A DNA stretch of 64,000 nucleotides from Copromyces sp. CBS 386.78. Its lineage: Eukaryota > Ascomycota > Sordariomycetes > Sordariales > Sordariaceae. Positions 4,298 through 63,834 of the stretch are shown here, in pieces. A program made the translations under genes and the position numbers. The first letter of the stretch is position 1. Each line of letters starts with the position of its first letter. The stretch lies in contig MU839121.1 of NCBI GenBank assembly GCA_030685235.1, forward strand, positions 186,001-250,000. Reading direction: 5' to 3'. The notes beneath the pieces are model-generated. The model worked only from the letters and a program-made list of their open reading frames with translations. It was not told where the DNA came from and made no database searches.

Positions 4298-6555
4298 ATG
4301 GACAGCAACTACGGCAGCGTAAGCTACTACCAGTACCAGCGAATCGACTTGTCCACCGATGCCATTCGACTTGTTCGCCTTTTCAGTGGATATCGCGAAG
4401 AGCCCATCCAATGCGAACTTGTCGAAACATTCCTCCATAAGGTGGACGGCTTGCCTTATGAAGCCTTGTCATATGCCTGGGGCAAATCTTCCGACGAACA
4501 TACAATATTCATCAATGACCAGAAGGCACTTGTTGGGGAGAACCTTCACATGGCCCTCCTCGCTTTACGGCAGCAGTACGAGGACAGGCTGCTGTGGATC
4601 GACGCCATTTGTATCGACCAGGGGAATCGCAAGGAAAAGGGCCATCAGGTCGGGCAGATGAGACAGATATACGAGCATGCCCAAAAAGTCCTCATATGGC
4701 TTGGCCCCAGCAACCCCGAGATTGATCTTCTCATGAACATGGCTGGGATGTGGGATTATCGAACAAGACAAGGCCCGGGAGCCCGCCACGAACAGACTTG
4801 GATCGATTCCTGGAACAGTCTCACTTCTAACGAGACCGGTCTTTACAAAGAGGAGGTTACTACTCGACGTCGCAATTCCTTGCAAGAGATACTGAACCGA
4901 CCTTGGTTTCGGAGAGTCTGGATCATTCAAGAAGCTGCTAGCGCAAGTAGGGCTACGATCCTGTGCGGCTCCAAAGCATTGTCCAGCCAAGGCTTCAGCC
5001 TATTGCCCTACTTACTAGGACTCGAACTGGATTCTTCTACCCAAGCAATCCTTGACATCCTTCCAAGCTATCGTCGGCAAAAGACTTGGTGGGGTGAAAA
5101 GAACAATCTCGAGACACTTCTCATGAAGTTTTCAGCAAGTGAAGCGACTGATCCTCGGGACAAAATCTATGCTTTGCTTGGCATTGCTTCAGACGCTCGC
5201 GCCAGCAACACCCTTCGCCCAGACTACGAAATATCGCTAGATCGCGCGATATACAATACCATCTCATTCTTGCTCTTTCAGGAGATTCACGAGCCTTCCT
5301 CTCTTCCGCTTCCAATGCATCGAAACATCGACGATTTACATCAGTTTCTTCCCAGGCTGCGGGAGTACGTCGTGCTACAGCGACAGCTGTTATTCCACAA
5401 CTTACCGACATCACCAAACTCCCAAATCAGTTCTCTATACAAGACTTCGATGCCTACTTCTGCCCTTTTCGACATCTGGTTGTCCATGTGCTAAAAGAAA
5501 AGGTTTCTTGTTCACATGGCTACTCAATTCGAACTGCATTCCAGCAAGATGGCACTGCCATTAACCCCAGGGAACTTATACCTCTCCTCTTGGCACACAC
5601 AAAGGTCGGGAACTTAGAGCTCGCCAAGTTCATACTTGCCCCTGAGCTTCCATGCTGGGAAATCCAAGACATGGAGGATCTTTTATTCAATGTGGCAAGT
5701 CTCGAGCTCCACTCGTTTCTCATGTTCAATGACCTTTTTACCTTGTGTAAGCCTCTTGTTTTACCGCTTGCGTCTCAAACTATCCATGCTGTGTTCAAAG
5801 AGGCAGCTATTCTTTGTGGTCGACTCAACCGTCTTTCCTGGCTTTCCCATCGACGAAACGAGTATTCAGTATTGAAAGTGGAAGATGAGTCATGGCGCAT
5901 GGACACTACCCCTGGGTGGATGGTTGAGTGGCTTGATGGCCTCAAACCCGGTGGGAAAGAGGACCACTCAAAGAGTAACACCCGCGATACTGGTCCCGAA
6001 AAGGAAATGGAAAAAAGGGACTCCGTTGGCAAGCTCTACCACGAGTTGTCCAAATACAAAGGGCTCCGTCAAGCAAATTACCTTGAGTTGGTAGTGGCCG
6101 CTTTAACCTTTGAAGAAGCGGGGATCAACATGTCTATCAACATGATCCAAAAATACGGTTTTAAAGACGAAGCCAATCCATATAAGCTGCCCACTCAATG
6201 GCCACCAAGCAAATTTCTTTTGAGGCTTTCGACCCAACCCTATACGTGGGGTGTCTCGCGGATTGACGATAAGCGGCTCCGCCTGGCGAGAAGGGACTTT
6301 CAAAACCAAACGTATACTCGACCAAAGACCGAAGCACCTCCTGAGTTGGTAACGAACATGGGGTTAGACGGAACGACCTGTACAGACCAGGCTGATAAAG
6401 CTTTGCAACAAGACTGTACAGACCAGATTTTTGAAGCTTTGCAACAAAAGGTGGACGTTGTTATTCTACGTCAGATGGGGGGACTTGGAAGATACATTTC
6501 GAAACTCCAAGCTTGGTGGAAATTCTTCACGTCAAGGGCTTGGAAGGCTGCCTAG
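4298..6555 (+). CDS. HET-domain heterokaryon-incompatibility-type protein
   Basis: Fungal HET-domain proteins mediate or resemble mediators of non-self recognition and programmed cell death after hyphal fusion. The HET signature is clear: YEALSYAWG near residue 60, LLWIDAICIDQ near 105 followed by QMRQIYEHAQKVLIWLG, then RPWFRRVWIIQEAA and DPRDKIYALLGIA. I chose the ATG at 4,298 because the family homology begins shortly after it. The frame is not continuous: the HET part runs in one frame to a stop at 5,494, while the C-terminal part (to 6,555) is in another that is open from about 5,145. A 59-nt intron at 5,372-5,430 (weak donor GTGCTA, acceptor AATCAG) would join them as REYV|FSIQDF; otherwise a one-base frameshift must be assumed. 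Near the C-terminus an 11-12-residue unit is duplicated (CTDQADKALQQ / CTDQIFEALQQ). The C-terminal region has no domain I recognise. Confidence 0.8.
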
Positions 6556-10223: not shown

Positions 10224-10877
10224 CTACCTTACAAACGGAGGTATTGGTGGCTGCGCCGACAGGATGTTTGCAAGCCAACCACCATGTTTATGTTCCCGAG
10301 CTCAAACGTCTTGACGTCCAGCTGCAAATTCCCGAGTTGAGCTTCCCTTCCGACAACTTGGTGGCAAACGGACCTTCGAGACGAAAGGAACAAAACTTCA
10401 TCTGCCTGTATCTGCAGTCCACCAGATCAGCAGATACCAGAAGTCTGATTGTCGTCCTTCGTTTCGAAGGCCCGTTTGTCAAAAGTTGTTGTTACCTCAA
10501 TTCTCGGGAAGTTACAGCGGGAACTTACTCAACCACCAAATGTGCCAGCCACATTACGTTCACTGTCCGGACACTCGGCATTTCTTCTAGGAGTTGGACT
10601 GCGCAGCCCCGATCCCATTATAGGAGCACACCGTGGACTGGACTTGGAACCTTCCGCAGGAGCTAGTTGCTCGGTGAAGTTAATTTTGTGCTCATGCCAA
10701 CCCAGTTATGGAAGGATGTCGCAAAGCAAGGCCGGCTCACCATTTCGGAAAACATGGAAAGTACACCAAACTTGTTTTATAGGTCAGTGTTTTGCGGCTA
10801 GTGAGTACATACGGCCATAGATAGTGGAAAACTCGGGATCCCGTCCGCTCTCCCATAGATAAGCCACTAATCGCCTG

Positions 10878-10923
10878 ACTAGTAGTTGGGTCGGTGACGA
10901 CCAGCGAATCCCAGGTGCTGTAT
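10878..10923 (-). repeat. 46-bp copy of segment at 1,961-2,006
   Basis: The two 46-bp segments differ at only two bases and lie about 8.9 kb apart in the same orientation. On the minus strand both read in the same frame as YSTWDSLV(V/I)TD(P/T)TTS. The similarity stops sharply on both sides. It suggests two decayed members of one lineage-specific gene family. Confidence 0.8.
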
Positions 10924-11035
10924 GTTTTTTCTTTTTGACTTTCCTTTCTCAACCTTATTCCCCCCATTTTTATTTCCCCTGGCATGAAACGATATTTCCA
11001 TTGAACATACAAGAGCCATTCTTACCCGAACTATT

Positions 11036-17229: not shown

Positions 17230-18582
17230 TGTCGTCCGGGTAAAAGAATAATTCGTACACCAGAAAGGAATGCCAGTGAATCGGGAGCCTAGTAAAGAGA
17301 AAGAGAACCCAGGGCATCCGACAAAAAAGCAGCCTGTGAAGATATAGGCACTGGACATGAGTAGGGTAGGTAAAATGCGACAACGGATTTCACGAGATGA
17401 TTCGGTAGGCGGACCAGCTGTGGTGTGGGCAGACCGTGAGGTATGAGGTATGGAAATCAAAGGAGAAAAAAATGTTGATGGATTGGTTGTCTGGCTGAAA
17501 CAGAATCGGAACGGGGACCTGTGTAAGAGTGGTTGAAACCAATGGGGAGAATTGATGGTTTGATTGGTCTAAGGAAGAAAGGGAAAATCCCAAGGAGCTG
17601 CCCGGTCCTGAACCTAAATACCCGAAAGTCGAAGAAGAAGGTGGGGGACGAATCCGCTGATCTCAAGAGGCACTGGACATGAGTACGTAAAACGCAACAA
17701 CGGATTCCACGAGATGATTCGGTACAGTAGGCAGACCGTGTCTGAGGTATGAGGTGATGGAAATCAAAGGAGAACAAAATGTTGATGGATTGGTGGACTG
17801 GCTGAAACAGAATCGGAACGGGGACCTGTGTAAGAGTGGTTGAAACCAATAAGAATTGATAGTTTGATTGGTCTGGGGAAGAAAAGAGAAATTCCCAAGT
17901 CTGAGGTCTGCCAGTCCTCTAGCTAAATACCCAAAAGTCGAAGAAGAAGGAAGGTAGGGGACGAATCCACTGGTCTCACCTGGCCAAACACACCTGGAAT
18001 ACCCGCGAAGAAAACTACCCTAGGCTGGGTGACGACTTCCCAATGTAATGTTAACGTGTGTTGCGCCTAGTCGGCCTACCTTAGTCAGGAAGGTGCGACA
18101 CCTAGATAACCAGAGAAGCTAGGCCGATGCTTACCGCGAGGAAGGAAGACAGGACCTACCTAGTAGCATTCAAGTTTCAGAATTTCCATTCGTTCTCATG
18201 GAAAGCACGACTGACCCAGTAGATGACAGCATGTGAAGAAGCATTGGGCATGTAGTCTAATGTGGGTTATATGCCATCTCCGCGAGCTTCAGTTCACAGG
18301 CAGGCGAGTTAGGCAGGTAGGTAGTGCTAAAAAGACTCCGACTCGAGGTACCGTACACACGGGCTCACCAAACCCCAGTTGTACCTACTGTTGGTTTGAC
18401 ATCGCCTGGCGGGATAATAAAACCAAGCAACACTCTGTAATACTTGCAACAAAACCGATGACAACATAGGCGGAGGAACATCTGCCCAAATCCAAAAACG
18501 CTTCATTCAGTTCGCTATATTCAACCATTACCCCACCCATCATCCATCCCACTTTCGTCCACTTTCATAGACTCTAACCCAT
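17230..18582. other. Intergenic with tandem duplication
   Basis: Spacer between the convergent oxidase and AVL9 genes. Most of the first 750 bp is the tandem duplication listed separately; in the remainder (17,990-18,582) I see no gene. Confidence 0.5.
17347..17985. repeat. 322-bp imperfect tandem duplication
   Basis: Unit 1 begins GGCACTGGACATGAGTA at 17,347 and unit 2 begins with the same word at 17,669. Shared blocks include CGAGATGATTCGGTA, AATGTTGATGGATTGGT and GAATCGGAACGGGGACCTGT, and both end in GTCGAAGAAGAAGG...GGGGACGAATCC. The copies differ by several short indels and many substitutions. There is no reading frame conserved between them. Confidence 0.85.
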
Positions 18583-30600: not shown

Positions 30601-31416
30601 GCTGTCACAAGGCTGTGCCTACCCATCTAAGGTATCTACCCATTATTTCAGGGTACGGAAATTGCAGAAAGGAACTCAAAGCTACCTCTACCCATCATGA
30701 CGCTGCACAAGGTATGGGGTACAGACCACTTAGATTATGTACTGAAGTGCCACGGGAAAGGTGAGTGTTTTAGTCTAGGCACACCCAACTCTAGTTCTAA
30801 CATCAACCTGCGCACAAAAAGAGTCTTGGACAACCGACGATCAGGTCTGGAATGTTCTCTGTATCCCACTTATACCTCACCTCACTTAGGTACCTACGCC
30901 CAGTCAGTCAAATACGAGAGGCTATTCTACATCAGGAGAGGAACTCAGACACTCCGTCCGTCCTCTTTGCACCGCACCAGATTCCTTCTAGAACATTGAT
31001 TGACAACTTCCATTCACGTTCCACAACTTCCGTCCTTGTACATGGAACGCCTCGAACATCCATTTACCCCGTGTTCCATCTACCCCGTGTTCATCTACAC
31101 AGTGGTCGTTCACGAAGCAGCTCTCCAAAGGACAGCATGTGGATATGACAGCGACGAATACCCCGAGAGCCTGGCTTACAAAACCAAAACCGAAAGACGA
31201 CAGACATCAAGGGCAGGGGATGGCCAAGCCGCTCGATACCAAACATACCTGCGTTCCGAACGGAGACGCCGTTATCGAGTTTTGTCTCGGTGTTGGCTGT
31301 TCTCGCGCTACATCCACCGTCCAAGCTAGGTACACACTCGGTAAGTAGTTCCTGCAAAAAGCCTAACATGGGACGGGCATGGTCAGGTTGTACTAAGTCT
31401 TTAGCTAGCTAGCTAG

Positions 31417-31660
31417 CTACTTACCTACGTGCCTGCCTACCTACTTACCTACCTACTTACCTACCTACCTACCTACCTACCTACCTACCTACCTACCTAC
31501 CTACCTACCTACCTACCTACCTACCTACCTACCTACTTATACCTACCTACCTACCTACCTACCTACCTACCTACCTACCTACCTACCTACCTACCTACCT
31601 ACCTACCTACTTACCTACCTACCTAAATACCTACCTACCTCCTTACCTACCTACCTACCT
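31417..31660. repeat. (CTAC)n microsatellite array
   Basis: About 240 bp of CTAC/CTAC units with a few CTTAC and TTATACC interruptions. The 65-residue ORF across it (YLPTYLPT repeats) is a by-product of the repeat. Flanking DNA contains more ACCTAGGTA-type words. Confidence 0.95.
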
Positions 31661-31921
31661 AAGGGCCACCTAGACTAGACGTTAAACACCCAACAAGACA
31701 ACTGAAGCCATCCATCACATCCGTCACTGCAATCAATCGGCTGCAATGGGATTGAATGTACATACATACATATATACATACATACATACAGTACTCCTGA
31801 AACTCCCCAAAAAAAAAAGAACAGAACACAAAGGGTCAAAACTATGGACAAAGTTTTTATTTTTGAGAAGAAACTGAAATGAAATATAAGGGTTATCTAC
31901 CTACCCTTGCGTCTAGGTATT

Positions 31922-38200: not shown

Positions 38201-38786
38201 TTTGAGTGTTTGTTGTGTCGAAATCTACTAAGTGCAGGATATCACGAGGGTAGGCGAGGTTGATATGATTAAGAGAAGGAAGAAAAGGAGGGGTAAGGCC
38301 CTCCATTTATACCGTTGGATATAAGAGTTGAGGACACATATCTGAATTGATATGCAATGCAGGAATATTCTTCATGCCTACAGTTGAAATGATGCTAATG
38401 ATGCTTTTTCAGAACACCTCGATGGGGATGCCTCTCGCCTTTCAACCTCTCCGTCCCGCCACAGTCTTCCACTCGGGACTCATCAGATGCTGTTTCGGTC
38501 CCTCAGCTCACCAAGTCTTCCAACATCCAAGTAAACAACTCCGAGATGCTTCGGCCTGGCTTTGGATGCCTCCCTTCCCTTCCACTTCACATCGACTAAT
38601 GGCCCTCACTAACATAACATATCTACCCGTAGTGTCTTCCAGGTATAGGTCATCCGCCCGTCTTCCCGACTCCCACCTTCGCAGCCATCACATGTTTGGT
38701 TGTGCATTCTAAACTACATACTACCTCCCCAACCCGCCATCATAACCCCTCCAAACGGCGCCGACTTCCAACAAGATCATCAATAC
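38201..38786. other. Intergenic, nothing recognised
   Basis: Promoter region of the small secreted protein and leader of the tRNA pair. No gene seen. Confidence 0.5.
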
Positions 38787-38877
38787 GGGCGTGTGGCTCA
38801 GTTGGTAGAGCGTTCGCTTAGCATGTTTCCCTCTACGAGCATGCGAAAGGTCCTGGGTTCGATTCCCAGCTCGTCCA
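38787..38877 (+). tRNA. tRNA-Ala(AGC), intron-containing
   Basis: The 91-nt gene folds to a standard cloverleaf after removal of an 18-nt intron one base 3' of the anticodon. The acceptor GGGCGTG pairs with CTCGTCC and includes the G3:U70 wobble pair that identifies tRNA-Ala. D-arm GGCTCAGTTGGTAGAGC, anticodon arm TTCGC-TTAGCAT-GCGAA (anticodon AGC) and T-arm CTGGGTTCGATTCCCAG are intact. The intron is TGTTTCCCTCTACGAGCA. Confidence 0.95.
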
Positions 38878-38923
38878 ATTTCTCGATCGTCGTCAATCTT
38901 TTCTTCTCCAGTCCCACTTTCTA

Positions 38924-39014
38924 GGGCGTGTGGCTCAGTTGGTAGAGCGTTCGCTTAGCATACCTCCCGTCACGGATATGCGAAAGGTCCTGGGTTCGAT
39001 TCCCAGCTCGTCCA
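38924..39014 (+). tRNA. tRNA-Ala(AGC), second copy
   Basis: Same orientation, 46 bp after the first copy. All exon bases are identical to copy one, while the 18-nt intron (TACCTCCCGTCACGGATA) differs at many positions. Acceptor with G3:U70, anticodon AGC and the internal A and B boxes are intact. Confidence 0.95.
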
Positions 39015-41266
39015 AAACTTGGGAGGGTGGTTAGATGGTTCGAGATTCTTTTTTTGCTTCATTCTTGCGTGTCTTTTTTGCTTTTGGGTTTGTCGTCGTT
39101 GTTGTTCTGCTGCGGTTGGACTTGAGATATATATATATACAAGCTTCTTAGGTTTTGATTCGTAGGTAATATAACTGGCATCCATCCATCCTTCTTCAAC
39201 GTCCGCATTGCAGTTCTATAGCCGATAGAGATACGACCCCTCTTTTTGATGATGGCACGTACGGACAGACAGGCAGATAGTATCTTGTCACTAGTCGACA
39301 TGACAATGGACAAAAACATCTCTCAAATGAATTCCATTTCCATCTATGACTTGCAACCAACCCAACCCATCACGCTCATTCATATCACTCCAACTCACTA
39401 GAGGTAGTTCGGAGCAATCCTAAATAAATTACGCGGGGTATGTCATTGTCGCAGGTAGCTTCGTGCGTCCATAGTCGTCAGTTCGTTATTTACAAACTAT
39501 ATATAGTTTTGCTCTCTACCATCTGTTTGTTCCGTTCAGTCAGTTCGCGTAGAAGTGACCGGGCAGCCTTAATTCTACTAGACCGGTATGCATGTATGTA
39601 TATAGGTATGTATGTATGTAGTAAATGTTAGCCACCTCTTATCTATCTATATCGAGGAAGAAAAGACTATTATCGGAAATATGAAAGTCGTCGAACTAAG
39701 ACTTTTTTTTGAGTTTTCCACCATCTATCGCCATGTGTGTTTATAGCTATCAAATCACTAACTAGCTTATATCTCAGATACGTACGTAGGTAGGTAGGTC
39801 CTGCAGAGCTTTAGTTGTGATGATCGTGAAGCGAGCGCTAGGTATGTGAACTTTCAGTTCAAGCTGTGGTGGACCGTGGAACTGAACGGTGGGAAGTAAC
39901 AGACATAGACTGTAATTCTGGAGAAGATACGTAACCTCCCCTATGAGTTCGATTAATGAATATTATTGAGGTGGTTGGGGTTCCTTCAGTTCCTTATAAC
40001 TTTCTCGAGAGCTCTTCCAGTCTTCCTCCCTTTCTGTCATTTTCATGCACCACCCTTTTCCTCATCGAGGACAAGCACTTAAACGACTACCGGTACCACG
40101 CGTTTCTAAAGTAACAACAAAGCATGGTATCGTCGTCCCGTCACCATTGGCACCAAAGCAGGTACACATGGTACACAAGATATGTATTATCTGTTCCGTC
40201 CCACTATAATATCGTATCGTATCACTGTCTTTGGTCTGTCTCTCTCGTGTGCCTGTCTTCCTCTGCCCAATGCCAAATTGCCAGCGTGTCGTTATCCACT
40301 TAATCAACTCATTAGTAAAGTAGGGTAAGCACCTGCTTGTTTGTTCAATCCTACTTCATCAGATAGGTAGTATCCTGTGTGACTGACTGACTGACCAGAA
40401 AGACGTCTAGACAGCTTTCATCTCCTCCGACTCTAAGCCTGCGCTGCCTGCCTTCAAACGGCGGCGGCTCGCTAACCGGGGGGAGAAGGAATTCGTGAAC
40501 ATCATGGCTTCTTTCTTCTTCTTCTTCTCCTTCTTCCATCTCCCCTTTCTGTTTCGATGAGCCTCGGACTATGGACTGACTGTATTGTAATGTCGGATCG
40601 AAACCTCACTGGGAGGTGACAGACCACGGGACTCCTTCCCACGCGGTTTCCATCTCACATCTCTTCCTTTTTTTCCTCCAGGCTCCTTCCATGACAGTGA
40701 CAGCGACAGCGACACCACACCTTTTGACATGTCTCTTCTCCAGTTTTCGTTTTCCTTGCGATGCGGTTTGAAAAGGAATGTACAAAAAAGCAAGGACTGC
40801 TCAGTCGAGCCAGTCGCCGTCGTGAAAAGTGCTGTTCTGCGTCGGGGCAAAACAAATGGTGTGTAAACAAAATTACAATAAGTTCCATGTGGTATGGTAA
40901 GGTTGCGATAAGATATGATGTGTTGCACACTATCATGATCACAATGTTCATGATGTTGTGAATAACGCGCGCTGCCCGTCGCTCAGATAAATGCAATTCT
41001 GATGAAAAGAGAAACTGATTGGAAGCAAAGCAAACCTCAGGTTGGCAAAGGTCCAAACGCGTGTGAACCTGGATATGGTGGAAACAACAACCGTCGCCTC
41101 TGTGCTGTCACTGCTGTGCTTTTGCTAACCGGCCAGCCAGACAGCCAACCACCCCTATAACGCCGAGTCATGCAGGAAGAGAAACTTGGTAACATTCTGA
41201 ACGCTTGTGCGAGAGAGAGAGAGAGATGGAGGGAGGAAGAAAATGCGTGAGCAAAAAGGTCTTTCA
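39015..41266. other. Intergenic, nothing recognised
   Basis: 2.25 kb between the tRNA pair and the gna-3 stop. It is AT-richer than the coding DNA, with TATATA (39,127-39,140), GTAGGTAGGTAGG (39,785) and a TTCTTCTTC run near 40,510. No supported gene. Confidence 0.45.
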
Positions 41267-56682: not shown

Positions 56683-57717
56683 AGCAAAAGCAATCATGGG
56701 GCGACTACATCCAAACCAAAGCAGCCCTGACCTGGGCGTCCTGGGAGAAGAAGGAATCAGGCTGGCAAAAGTCCGTCGTCGGATACGGCAACCACCTGCT
56801 TAGGAAGCTACCCTACGAAGAATGGGCGTTGAAGAGCGTGCCACCCTTGACAAAGGCGCGGCAACGACAGCTTGAGGCGCTCGTGCAGGAACAGGCACAG
56901 GAGCAAGGAGGTTTCAAGATGGCATCAGAGGAAGCGGAGAAGGGAGGCAAGAGGGGGAAGGTGGACATCGGCAAAGTAGAGGTCGTGTATCCCGCTGGAC
57001 TGATCACCGAGGAAAGAGTGCCGAGGATACTGCACAAGCTGGCGACAGAGAGGGAGGGTCATCATAAGAAGTGGTTCTGGTATTGTTTGGTGGGAATGCC
57101 CATTACTCTTCCTATTGGTATCCTACCGTTGTAAGCTTCTCCCTGTCCCCCCTTCTACCTTCCCAACAAACAGTTACTAATACACACCCCTTTTTACAAA
57201 CAGAGTCCCGAACCTCCCCTTCTTCTACCTCTGCTACCGCGCCTGGTCCCACCACCGCGCCCTCTCCGGCGGCAAACACCTCGCCTACCTCCTCCAACAG
57301 CCCTCCCGCCTGCTATCCTTCCACCCCTCGCCCATCCTCGACGAAGTGTACTCCACCCAGCGCTTTCCGCTCCCATTCACCCCCGAGCCGACCACCGGCC
57401 CCGAAGCCGAAACGGTTAAGCACCCGGATCCGGTCAAGGTTGTCAAGGCAATAAACGCTACGGAAAAGACGGGTGGGGTGAACTTGGGTCACGTCTTGGA
57501 AGAAGGAGAGGTTGAAGATGGCGAAGTCATGTTGCTGAGCCAGGACAACGCGAAGAAGATGGTCAAGCTGCTGGACGTGCCGGAGCTGGAGGTGGAGCTG
57601 GAGAGAGCGATTTGGCAGGTTGAGACGGCGGTGGAGAAGAAGAATAAGGAGATTGGGGCCGGGGTTAGGGTGAATGCGCCGACGGTGGATGATACCAAGA
57701 AGGAGAAGGCGCAGTAA
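56520..57717 (+). CDS. Mitochondrial K+/H+ exchange-related protein
   Basis: Exons 56,520-57,130 and 57,204-57,717 join across a 73-nt intron (GTAAGC...AAACAG) to give 374 aa. The family (Mit_KHE1, PF10173-type; yeast YDL183C) has been linked to mitochondrial potassium/proton exchange in the inner membrane. The start MRLYLLPISTRRTLLYCQKL is a basic, hydrophobic presequence. KALTWASWEKKESGW-like and KLPYEEWALKSVPPLTK blocks follow, then VEVVYPAGLITEERVPRILHK and a hydrophobic pair of segments across the splice: WYCLVGMPITLPIGILPL|VPNLPFFYLCYRAW. A run of about 17 Thr (residues 38-54) between presequence and domain is encoded by (AAC)n at 56,631-56,681. The C-terminus is acidic and helical. Confidence 0.85.
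56631..56681. repeat. (AAC)17 coding microsatellite
   Basis: Seventeen or so AAC/ACA units inside the coding region, read as poly-threonine in the gene's frame. Likely length-polymorphic. Confidence 0.9.
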
Positions 57718-59348: not shown

Positions 59349-60039
59349 TGTGAGTTGTCGTTTATATCTCTGTTGTTTGACCGTGGTACGGGATTGGGTT
59401 GTTGGGTGGAGGCTGTGAAGAGAGAGAGAGAGAGACATCAAAGTTGAGACACAGCGATGAGAATAGTTTCCTTTTATTTCTTTTCTCATCAGCTGACAGT
59501 GGCAGTTTGAAGTGAAGGGTTGGTTTTTGGCAGTTCATGTGCAGCCATATGCAGTGTTGCCGGTTGTCAACTGGTTTTTTTACCGGCCCCGACATGTTGC
59601 CGACATATTCTGGCGCGACTGACTTGAATTATGGTTCGATTGTTCATTTTCATCATCCCAGATTGAATGAGACTTTGGCCAAGAAGAGTGAGAGAATCTT
59701 TGACGTTTGCACCTGGTGGACTTTGTGTGATGGTAAGCGAGCAGGATGAATAAAGACAGGGCTTGGATTGGTGAAGACCTGGCCAACTCGGTTTGCAACG
59801 GAAATATGCGGACCTCCAAGGAAGAGGTAGTTAGGAAGGAGCGATCAGAGACATATTTCCGGAAAATTCTGCTGGTTAAAAATCTCAAATCATGATGGGT
59901 TGGGAAGGAGCGGGCGACATGGTGCCTGAAGAAGTGAGGTGGAGGCTTCAACTCAAGGTATGGCAAGATCCACCATTTCGGTTCGTTTTTGACGAGCTCC
60001 GTAACTTGCGCGAGGCTTCGATCGGCTCCAATGGGTGTC
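59349..60039. other. Spacer at the left inversion junction
   Basis: Contains a (GA) run at 59,419-59,434. A minus-strand frame is open from the junction at 60,039 down to 59,580 and includes a protein-like stretch (LAQVTELVKNEPKWWILPYL). It may belong to a neighbouring gene that was cut by the same rearrangement; see the findings. Confidence 0.45.
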
Positions 60040-62000
60040 CTCCAACCGACCATATTGCGCCAACGATGACGTCCTCGCACTAAACGCCCTCCTCCCTTCA
60101 CATTCCCCTTTGGCGTCACTTGCCCTTCTCTTTGGCGGCAACCCCAACTTTTCTCTTAGCTCGTTCTCATTCGTCACCGACATGCCCACCGTCGACCGTC
60201 TCGAGTGCTCTTGATGCCGCTTGAGGATTTTGTCAGCCGAGATGTTGGCGACGAAGCGCGTGATGCTGGAGATGACAAGACCGAGAAACAGGAGACCGAA
60301 GGTTTGGAAAGGTACGAGGAATGCCCTGCCGGCGGTTGTGGCGGGCGCGAAGTCGCCGAAGCCGACTGTTAGGATTGTCTTTTCTTCATGGTCAGCCTTT
60401 GAGGGAACAGGGGCCCGGATAAGCTCAAGGACCGACCGCCGCGCAGTCGTCAAGCCAGGGACCCTTCATTCGCTTGATCTAAGAAGCGTAAAAAGAGAAC
60501 AAAAAAAAAAGTTTGCTGGTGGCCAACGATACCCCAAGGTCATCACCCCTGAAAGGTATCCCCTCATGTTCGGTCACAGCTCGACCTCGTTTGCCCAGTT
60601 GAAGGCACATGTTGTGATCATATAGATCATAGGCTCGCCTGAGCAGAATGTCGTGTCGAAAGCTGCCGCCACGGGAATCGAACCCGTTGCCTTTTGAGCG
60701 GGTATAGGATAGGAGGTGTGCTGTGCGCAACACCACCTGCCGCTCGACCAACCAGCCGGTTTGTGTTGGGAACTTGGACCGGACGAATGGGTTATATGGG
60801 GCGGGGCGGGATAGAGAACGATGGCGCATTGCTGCCTTGGATGATTTTAGAAGGAAGGTACGGGTGAAGGCCTGGCTTTCATCCGATGTTCGGATGTTGG
60901 GCCTGAGGCTCCCCTCGTCCCGAACTTTGAGGTGACAAAGGGAAAGTGACGAGATGGACAACTGGATTGGGTACATGGGGAAGGTTGAAAAGGACTTACA
61001 ACATCACGATAATACAATCCATCACAAAAGCCCCCAGGCCAGTCCTCCAACCACGCAAACACTGCCCCTCCGCCCGCCAACCAAACGAAGAAAAGCATGG
61101 TCTGCAAGATCAACGTCCTCTGGTCGTCGTCGAGGTCGAATTGTTGAGGGTAGTATCCCCTCAGGTATCCGAGCATGTTGATCGCCAACAACACCGCCCC
61201 CAGGGCGTAAAAGAAGGCCGAAAAGATAGCGTGGTAGTAGCCTTGGGAGTAAACCTCTGGCCAAGCCGGCGGCGAATGGATATACATGGCCAGCAAGATC
61301 GCAACCAACTGTCACTTTTGTCAGCAGCTCCGCTCCCTGTCTCCTCTCACTCAGTTCAAGGAAAGGGACAGCTCACAATCCGCGAACTAAACACCCACGC
61401 TCCAACCGCCGCGGGAATAGCAACCACATACCTCACCCTTCCGGTAAAATTCAGCAATAAAAAGAAATTACCTGCAAACCCACATATCAGCGAGACAATG
61501 TTGGCATTGATCTCCCACTTGGGGTCCGGGATACCGACCCCATTGTCATCTTTGCCATCGGGCAAGATGCCGGAGTTGGGAAGAGTCGCTTTCCAGGTAG
61601 TGACCAGGGAGGCAATGGACAAAACGTGGGACAGCGGACCGATGGTGGCGACTATGAGGGGGATAGCTGTCGAGGCGGGCCACCATTTTCTGTGAGAGGG
61701 GCAGAGAGGGTGTTAGTTGAGGTAGTGTGGAAAGTGAATAGGGTGAAAGAGGGGAAATAGAGAGTGGATTACTGAGGTAGATTGTCATTTCTACCGGGGA
61801 GTTTGATGTGCCCGCTCAAGACGGTTCGGATTCCATTGTTTGGTGTTGGCTCTTGGGAGGAAGAGGTCGGATTGAGCCGTGGCCTTGATTGGATGGGATG
61901 TGGAAAAGGTGAAGATTGATGTTGGGCGGTCGGAGTTTAGACGACCGCCTCTTCCAGCACCGGACGAGGATGACGGTTGTCCCATTTTTGACTCGGCCAT
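60040..62000 (-). pseudogene. TOK1-type K+ channel, N-terminal half (inverted)
   Basis: TOK channels are fungal plasma-membrane outward rectifiers with eight transmembrane segments and two pore loops. Four exons encode the first half: 62,000-61,795, 61,689-61,377, 61,308-61,000 and 60,378 to about 60,040, joined by introns of 105, 68 and 621 nt that keep the frame (about 389 codons). ATG 62,000 gives MAESKMGQPSSSSG. Membrane segments are in exon 2 (IPLIVATIGPLSHVLSIASL; NIVSLICGFAGNFFLLLNF; VVAIPAAVGAWVF), exon 3 (AIFSAFFYALGAVLLAINML; LILQTMLFFVWLAGGGAVF) and exon 4 (FGLLFLGLVISSITRFVANI), with pore 1 as RDV|TILTVGFGDFAP. After SSLAQYGRLE the homology ends abruptly; the frame then runs 29 codons into unrelated DNA and stops at 59,953. 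Pore 2 and the C-terminus are missing here and lie on the other strand at 62,497-63,834. Confidence 0.85.
60663..60757 (-). tRNA. tRNA-like sequence within the TOK intron (degenerate)
   Basis: On the minus strand, inside the 621-nt third intron, 95 nt carry a good A box (TGGTCGAGCGG, 60,740-60,750) and B box (GGTTCGATTCC, 60,674-60,684) with a sound T-stem ACGGG/CCCGT, and the length and variable region of a class II (Leu/Ser-like) tRNA. The acceptor arms (GGCTGGT against GGCGGCA) pair poorly and no normal seven-base anticodon loop can be drawn. It is probably a tRNA pseudogene, or an intron-containing tRNA I cannot fold by hand. Confidence 0.4.
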
Positions 62001-62490
62001 GGTTGTGCGACCTCTAGGACTAACGTGAGGAGGGAATGTGGGGAAGACACTCGAAACGCAAGAATCACAGTCGAGGCAGACTGGGCTTTCGGTCTTTGGG
62101 GGGAGGAGATTAAGGAGCCAGGAAGAGAAGAAGAACGAGATATACATTCAAGGCTGTCCGTATTCCATAGAGGCGACAGGTTAGCACTGACCAAGTCGAT
62201 GATGGGCAGTCTCAGCAACTTGTCATGATCATCGCCAACAACAGCGTGATGGCATGAAGCAGTACCAAGGGGTTTCAGTCCCGGAGGACACTCGGAATTT
62301 AAGACGCCATCTGTGATCGCGTTGGGAAAAGTTGCAATGTTACCGGGACTTTTGGCATGATCTCTGTGGGATGTTGCCCTCTAGCCGAAGCTGTAGTACC
62401 TTGACTTCGACATCAACGGTCTAGCATTAATAGGTATTTTGGCATCGACGGTTTTCCTTCTGAAGAAGACAAAACCACATATCTGGATGA
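62001..62490. other. Promoter of inverted TOK half and right junction
   Basis: Upstream DNA of the inverted N-terminal half, ending at the right junction near 62,496. A plus-strand frame from 62,405 to the junction is open with protein-like composition (GIDGFPSEEDKTTYLDDER) and continues, if the inversion is undone, into the frame at 60,039-59,580. Confidence 0.5.
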
Positions 62491-63834
62491 CGAGAGGTTG
62501 CGGGTAGATTGGTCACTTTTCGGCGGCACTCTCAGGCTGGGCCTGGTGGTGGAAGTGAAAACACTCCAGGCGACGGGGCCACTCAAGGCGGAGAGGGAGA
62601 TGGACAAACGCAGAAGGGGACAAAAGAAGAACAGTCTAGGCAGAAGATGCTCAAGTTTGACTTTGGGAATGAGAAGGGGAAGAGGCCCGAATCAGCTGCT
62701 GCGGGTGATGGCGGAGAGAAAAGTTCCGAACAAGGCAAGAGAAAAGAAAAGAGACAGAAGCTATTGCTTTTGAAGGAAGACAAGGATCGGTTTGATGCCA
62801 TGAGGCAGATCCAAGGCGAGACAAAACGGTGGAAGCAGTGAGTTCACCAGCTCCCATATCCCTTCCCCTTGTCTCAGTAGCTGACATGTCGACAGATACT
62901 GGGCCCTCGCTATGGCCTTCTTGGCCTTCTCCATTCTGTGGGGGTTCGGTGCTGCCGTCTTCATGCTCACCGAAGCGCGAATTTCCAACCTGTCGTATTT
63001 TGACTCCATGTACTTTTGCTGGGTGTGGCTACTTACTATTGGGTTTGTGCCCTTTTTTTGTCCCTTCCTAACTGACCAAGACTGACCGCCGGATAGGTAC
63101 GGCGACATAACTCCCAAGTCCAACATCGGCAAGCCATTCTTCATCGTCTGGTCTCTCATTGCTGTTCCCATCGTTACCGTCCTCTTTCAAGAGATGTCGT
63201 CCACCGTCGTCAGTGCAGTCAACCGTGGTGCGTTTAAGGTAGCTGACTGGACCATCATGCCGACGTCAAAACGTGGAGTGCTGGACAAGTACATCCATAA
63301 ACACGCCTGGTTGAAGAGATTCATTCGTAAAATGTCGGACGCGGAAGAGTGCGCAGTTCAAGCCAGCGGGGATGCTGAACAGCCAAGAGACCTAGCCAGG
63401 TCGCCCAGGGTGCTAACGACCAGGAAGAACACCTCCCGAATCTCGTCTCTCAACCAATCAAGTCCATAGCTCATGACCTCCGCTTCTCCCCACGCAAGCG
63501 CAACTCATACGAGGAATGGCAGCTCTTCACCAGGCTAATTCAGTTTACCCAGACACACGAGGAGGTCGAACATGACGAACCGATGGCATGGGACTGGCTG
63601 AGTGAAGATTCTCCTCTGCTGGCGGATATCACCGAGGCGGAATGGGTGCTGGATCGTTTGTGCGAGTCACTTGACAGATATACGCGTTCCAGTCCCCGTC
63701 AAGAGCCACGCCCGCGAGAGGATTATGATGGGCAGGTTGAGGACACAAGTCCGGGGCCAGATTCTTTGCGTATTGAGAGAGAGCCGGGGCCGCTTGATGA
63801 CGTAGAGGAGGACCGGGAAGTCTCACCACACTGA
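62491..63834 (+). pseudogene. TOK1-type K+ channel, C-terminal half (no promoter)
   Basis: The frame is open from 62,491 but lacks a family start. Exons: to 62,837; 62,896-63,042; 63,097-63,348; 63,396-63,834, with introns of 58, 54 and 47 nt (the last one, GTGCGC...CCTAG, is needed to reach the C-terminal frame). It encodes the basic linker (QKLLLLKEDKDRFDAMRQIQ), a membrane helix (ALAMAFLAFSILWGFGAAVF), pore 2 as WVWLLTIG|YGDITPKS, a final helix (FIVWSLIAVPIVTVLFQEM) and a cytoplasmic tail ending EVSPH. Splice sites and reading frame are undamaged, so separation from the first half looks recent. The first in-frame ATG is at 62,647; if transcribed from a new promoter it could give a two-helix, one-pore protein. 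Confidence 0.85.

Follow-up and report, generated by a model that had tools for sequence, protein, structure and literature searches.

Probable loss of a TOK potassium channel gene in Copromyces sp. CBS 386.78 by a small inversion that took up DNA at a join

The window analysed here (64,000 nucleotides, bases 186,001-250,000 of contig C43 in an assembly of 49.8 Mb and 273 contigs) contains a gene for a TOK K+ channel that lies in two halves on opposite strands and is most likely a dead relic. The explanation that best covers the observations as a whole, and that we hold with good confidence, is that a piece of ∼2.46 kb was inverted by end joining with filler at the joins, leaving a TOK pseudogene.

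Fungal TOK channels have an eight-segment layout. The N-terminal half of the gene lies at 60040..61985 on the minus strand, as determined by tblastn with the Sordaria macrospora and N. hispaniola proteins (P0001 and P0003) and by splice-site letters, and comprises exon 1 (61985-61773), exon 2 (61689-61377), exon 3 (61308-61000), and exon 4 (60378-60040). Pore 1, TVGFGDF, is in exon 4, which closes the minus-strand series at 60,040 with ...SLAQYGRLE. The C-terminal half lies at 62497..63834 on the plus strand, as determined by tblastn, splice-site letters, and Pfam PF07885, with exons at 62497-62837, 62896-63042, and 63097-63834; it begins at 62,497 with VAGRLVTF and contains pore 2, TIGYGDI, the coding letters of which are interrupted by an intron. 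This exon map agrees with an earlier sequence-only reading of the window, which had placed the TVGFGDF half on the minus strand and the TIGYGDI half on the plus strand, head to head. The ion channel pore domain PF07885 was detected in both halves, and the best PDB match of the N-terminal half was to solved TOK channels (E 9.5e-43). Indeed, the gene resembles the two-pore fungal TOK outward rectifiers (PDB 9pik and 45il) in the sequence of both halves, in both pores, and, after the flip, in the order of its parts, and the two pore domains with TxGxGD filters that define a TOK channel are present (TVGFGDF and TIGYGDI). However, unlike in those channels, no single frame continues over both pores, because the halves are on opposite strands and carry frameshifts, which classes the locus as a TOK pseudogene. 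As a separate observation, intron 3 of the N-terminal half contains a 283-bp repeat (60490-60772) with three listed relatives at ∼75% identity on contigs C85, C84, and C97. The repeat has what we take, judging by eye, to be tRNA-like boxes; no tRNA or Rfam family was detected in the intron by ARAGORN or Rfam, one of the two runs having used bacterial-code settings.

Turning round ∼60,040-62,496 restores the TOK order of the Sordaria and Neurospora proteins. The S. macrospora protein (P0001) reads SLAQYGRLEVAGRLVTFRRHSRAG unbroken over the join with 0 residues missing there, and GRLEVAGRL stands at the join position in both P0001 and a Neurospora sp. protein (P0002); in N. hispaniola (P0003), which reads GRLVVAGRL, the join position is likewise continuous with one residue changed. 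In the window, the exons are in order on each strand, and every residue at the join is accounted for by tblastn. Among the matches listed, the C-terminal half is closest to S. macrospora P0001 (82% identity), Neurospora sp. (68%), and N. hispaniola (58%). Both of the Neurospora models are without some exons, away from the join, and the search for relatives of the C-terminal half covered proteins up to ∼742 aa, so the missing Pseudoneurospora TOK there is no evidence. The sequence-only reading had proposed an inversion of ∼2.46 kb that reunites GRLE with VAGRLVTF, continuous in fungal TOK channels, and had suggested alignment to Sordaria and Neurospora proteins as a check; that alignment revealed one continuous protein in the nearest relatives, running straight through the join, and together with the conserved flanking genes it gives the proposed inversion good support.

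The genes on either side of TOK have stayed where they would be expected. The left neighbour (approximately 56685..57717, plus strand) is related to mitochondrial K+-H+ exchange (PF10173) and is 97% identical to P0241 of Pseudoneurospora amorphoporcata, itself a member of the Sordariaceae; the right neighbour is the NMA111 protease gene, 99% identical (822/834 residues) to that of the same species. Thus, this fungus is a close relative of P. amorphoporcata, in which the two genes are both listed on a contig of 235,740 bp. Other Sordariales also have both genes close to TOK: Cercophora sp. LCS_1, for instance, numbers its loci 13052 (left neighbour), 13051 (TOK), and 13047 (NMA111), the first two being consecutive. 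Among the named species present in both lists (best 120 rows each), TOK and the left neighbour fall on one contig in 8 of 9, and TOK and NMA111 in 8 of 10, although several of these contigs span megabases and the same-contig counts are therefore weak taken alone. Because the PF10173 gene and NMA111 are near TOK elsewhere in the order, the locus looks to be in its original place, and the conserved flank order indicates that the event was probably a small, local inversion inside the gene, a conclusion that the sequence comparisons support well.

The left join contains foreign DNA. A filler of 69 bp (59969..60037, plus strand) is identical at 69/69 positions to C77:47142-47210; it is certain to be filler, with that contig as its clear donor. 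Its source lies inside a 694-aa open frame, and the exon next to this frame encodes a dual-specificity phosphatase domain (E 9.5e-15); hence the join carries a copy of an unlinked locus with the original retained and its frame open, as in a templated insertion. A single base at 60038, to which no strand is assigned, separates the filler from TOK and comes from neither source. As a control, 32 kb of the window was searched in two pieces, and none of the 88 matches listed elsewhere was exact over >33 bp. This control is partial (45 rows with 37/38 candidates scored for piece 1; 43 rows with 39/181 scored for piece 2), and the self-match was listed in neither piece. The window also holds several dispersed short repeats: those at 10804-10956 and 17520-17671 (∼130-150 bp) have many listed copies genome-wide at 88-98% identity and are perhaps MITE-like, and two more families, at 31402-31661 and 38757-39054, have several to many listed copies.

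The right join ends in a stretch (62366..62497, plus strand) related to contig C29, with 95% identity over 62432-62497 and 81% over 62366-62428; this stretch is probably, though less certainly than on the left, captured filler as well. The two pieces are adjacent in the window, but on C29 they are separated by ∼420 bp that include a fragment of a multi-copy repeat; 14 other scattered relatives of this fragment were listed, 10/14 with stops, and the three examined were AT-rich. Also on C29, positions 5300-5568 of locus L011 belong to a dispersed repeat of ∼270 bp with about 20 other copies listed, adjoining AT-rich DNA that looks RIP-mutated. The C29 match terminates within GAGG (62494..62497, plus strand), bases that are common to the C29-related stretch and the TOK break point and are also found at the other TOK end; GAGG could be either a 4-base microhomology or the fill-in of a staggered break. 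Thus, the proposal of the sequence-only reading that the breakpoints share GAG at a microhomology-type junction held in part: the TOK ends do share bases, one more than proposed, but plain microhomology is an incomplete account of joins that carry 69 bp from C77 on the left and a C29-related stretch on the right. We also considered whether C29 could hold a copy of the ancestral arrangement and rejected this. Beyond the two pieces, its homology to the TOK upstream region and left flank was no better than that of shuffled sequences (local scores reached by 23/100 and 34/100 shuffles; opposite-strand controls, 12/100 and 70/100), with one weak 34-bp match to the left flank (76%, E 0.006).

In the most plausible sequence of events, two double-strand breaks would have occurred, one in the TOK linker between the pore domains and one upstream of the TOK promoter, and the 2.46-kb piece between them would have been rejoined in reverse by end joining. 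At the left join, repair would have captured the copy of the C77 coding piece and a further single base; the right join probably took up a short C29-related stretch and closed on the 4-base overlap. The N-terminal half would then continue through 28 new codons to a stop, and the C-terminal half would be severed from the original start of the gene. These joins would be accounted for by Ku-type end joining in which small fragments were captured, and Ku domains were found at two loci in this genome. No Pol theta was seen in a six-frame search, which may overlook genes divided by introns; a mitochondrial exonuclease domain accompanies the one family A polymerase match, making a role for Pol theta unlikely. 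According to PMC9779921, fungi lack Lig3 and PARP1, two factors of importance to the theta pathway; the review also describes insertions as rare in yeast after microhomology repair, a point that counts against our explanation. In PMC11724301, inserts at yeast and human breaks are mostly about 50-300 bp, and those in yeast rad27 mutants are nearly all <100 bp with a median of 88 bp; the size of the 69-bp filler fits this yeast range, which supports its origin as a repair insert. We tentatively suggest, at somewhat less than even confidence, that one repair event in a fungus in which no Pol theta was found patched both flipped ends from two unlinked loci. If so, the locus would be a small-scale natural counterpart of the multi-donor rearrangements of cancer cells and yeast replication mutants.

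The halves themselves are damaged. Past GRLE, the N-terminal half reads through the join and filler (59953..60042, minus strand) for 28 new residues before a stop. Its exon 1 is read in two frames by tblastn, the part matching N. hispaniola residues 1-28 being in a different frame from the part matching P0001 residues 2-34, and the latter frame has no ATG before an upstream stop at 61,939. In the C-terminal half, homology to P0001 moves from frame +2 to +1 at ∼63,406 (residues 591/592), the first of these frames running into a stop at 63,469. GT...AG letters were present at all five TOK introns checked, as the sequence-only reading had stated, but its claim that all frames were intact failed on this frameshift in each half. 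Long clean frames nearby (879 aa and 644 aa) make a general sequencing error unlikely, and with one frameshift per half, the locus no longer encodes a full channel. Neither an intact copy of the split gene nor a second copy was found in this assembly. A distant TOK paralogue on C30 (L037 1-2730) has an open frame of >900 codons and is 34-42% identical by piece.

An assembly error, left open by the sequence-only reading, would mean that TOK is intact and collinear in the strain and that the inversion was produced by the assembler. The assembly does consist of 273 contigs; however, it is hard to see an assembler setting an exact copy of C77 coding sequence, the donor of which is open elsewhere, one base from the break. 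In addition, each half has its own frameshift. Flanking inverted repeats were examined as a route to such an error and set aside, the inverted arms near both breaks being short and imperfect (the longest 19 nt at 84%, and 14 nt). We consider an assembly error very improbable. Still more remote is that the halves work as separate genes. The head-to-head halves do have one upstream region in common, and an in-frame ATG at 62,647, before the membrane segments and pore of the C-terminal half, makes a shorter protein possible on paper. Yet the closest relatives encode a single unbroken protein, the C-terminal half directly follows a stop codon, has no ATG for 52 codons and is frameshifted in its tail, and the channel frame of the N-terminal half has no ATG before its upstream stop.

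A more substantial alternative, which we nonetheless regard as unlikely, is a two-step history in which TOK was already decaying, with its frameshifts and the C29-related stretch upstream, and the inversion and 69-bp patch came later without selection. The two junction stretches do differ in divergence: 3/66 and 9/60 aligned bases, plus a gap, differ between C29 and the window, compared with 0/69 for the left filler (Fisher P 0.11 for the first pair and 0.009 with both C29 pieces pooled). Their ages may therefore be unequal, or the direct donor may be a sequence other than C29. Moreover, the S. macrospora gene model starts just past the place of the exon 1 frameshift, and that lesion might be shared. 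Against this, both stretches end within a base or so of the breaks, which favours one event, and little time for a long decay is suggested by conservation. When 113/120 listed proteins (those of at least 480 aa) were aligned, with 110 as reference, the window departed at 7/99 sites that are at least 99% conserved and S. macrospora at 5/99, only 2 departures (L964V and Y983N) being confined to the window. Relaxed constraint on the window gene was not adopted on this comparison, which is a weak signal. Window-specific and Sordaria-specific changes stood at 5:3 in the N-terminal half and 25:16 in the C-terminal half with P0002 as outgroup, and at 15:5 and 19:14 with P0003, the 15 apparently taking in a misalignment over exon sequence missing from the P0001 and P0003 models. 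The 0 differences in 69 bp cap divergence since copying at about 4.2%, which allows the event to predate or postdate the split from P. amorphoporcata; the event may be recent, as the sequence-only reading had suggested, but its age is only loosely bounded. Overall, a real pseudogene created by a break-and-patch inversion is the reading that we favour with good confidence, the frameshifts having possibly arisen on either side of the inversion.

Both elements of this history have precedents. Templated insertions at breaks in yeast (PMC11724301) and in humans (TSIPs, PMC5110952) are likewise short copies of unlinked sequence of <100 bp with the donor kept and little microhomology; in contrast, the present case arose naturally in a filamentous fungus and sits at inversion joins. 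In Fusarium graminearum, gene-breaking inversions likewise have breakpoints inside coding sequences, and the accessible part of PMC11152077 does not describe filler at their joins. We found no published report of this TOK locus in the open-licence literature. As gene-breaking fungal rearrangements and templated insertions are each known, their combination here is a good specimen and not a new kind.

In conclusion, one TOK channel has most likely disappeared from this lineage, which retains a distant paralogue. The locus suggests that breakpoint filler can help to separate a real inversion from an assembly error, and that genes of wild filamentous fungi are also broken by short templated insertions, which have been studied in yeast mutants and tumours; here this occurred without a detected Pol theta. 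The Sordariaceae include genetic models such as Neurospora, and this TOK locus would represent, within that family, a natural instance of a gene lost through inversion, with DNA taken up at a join.
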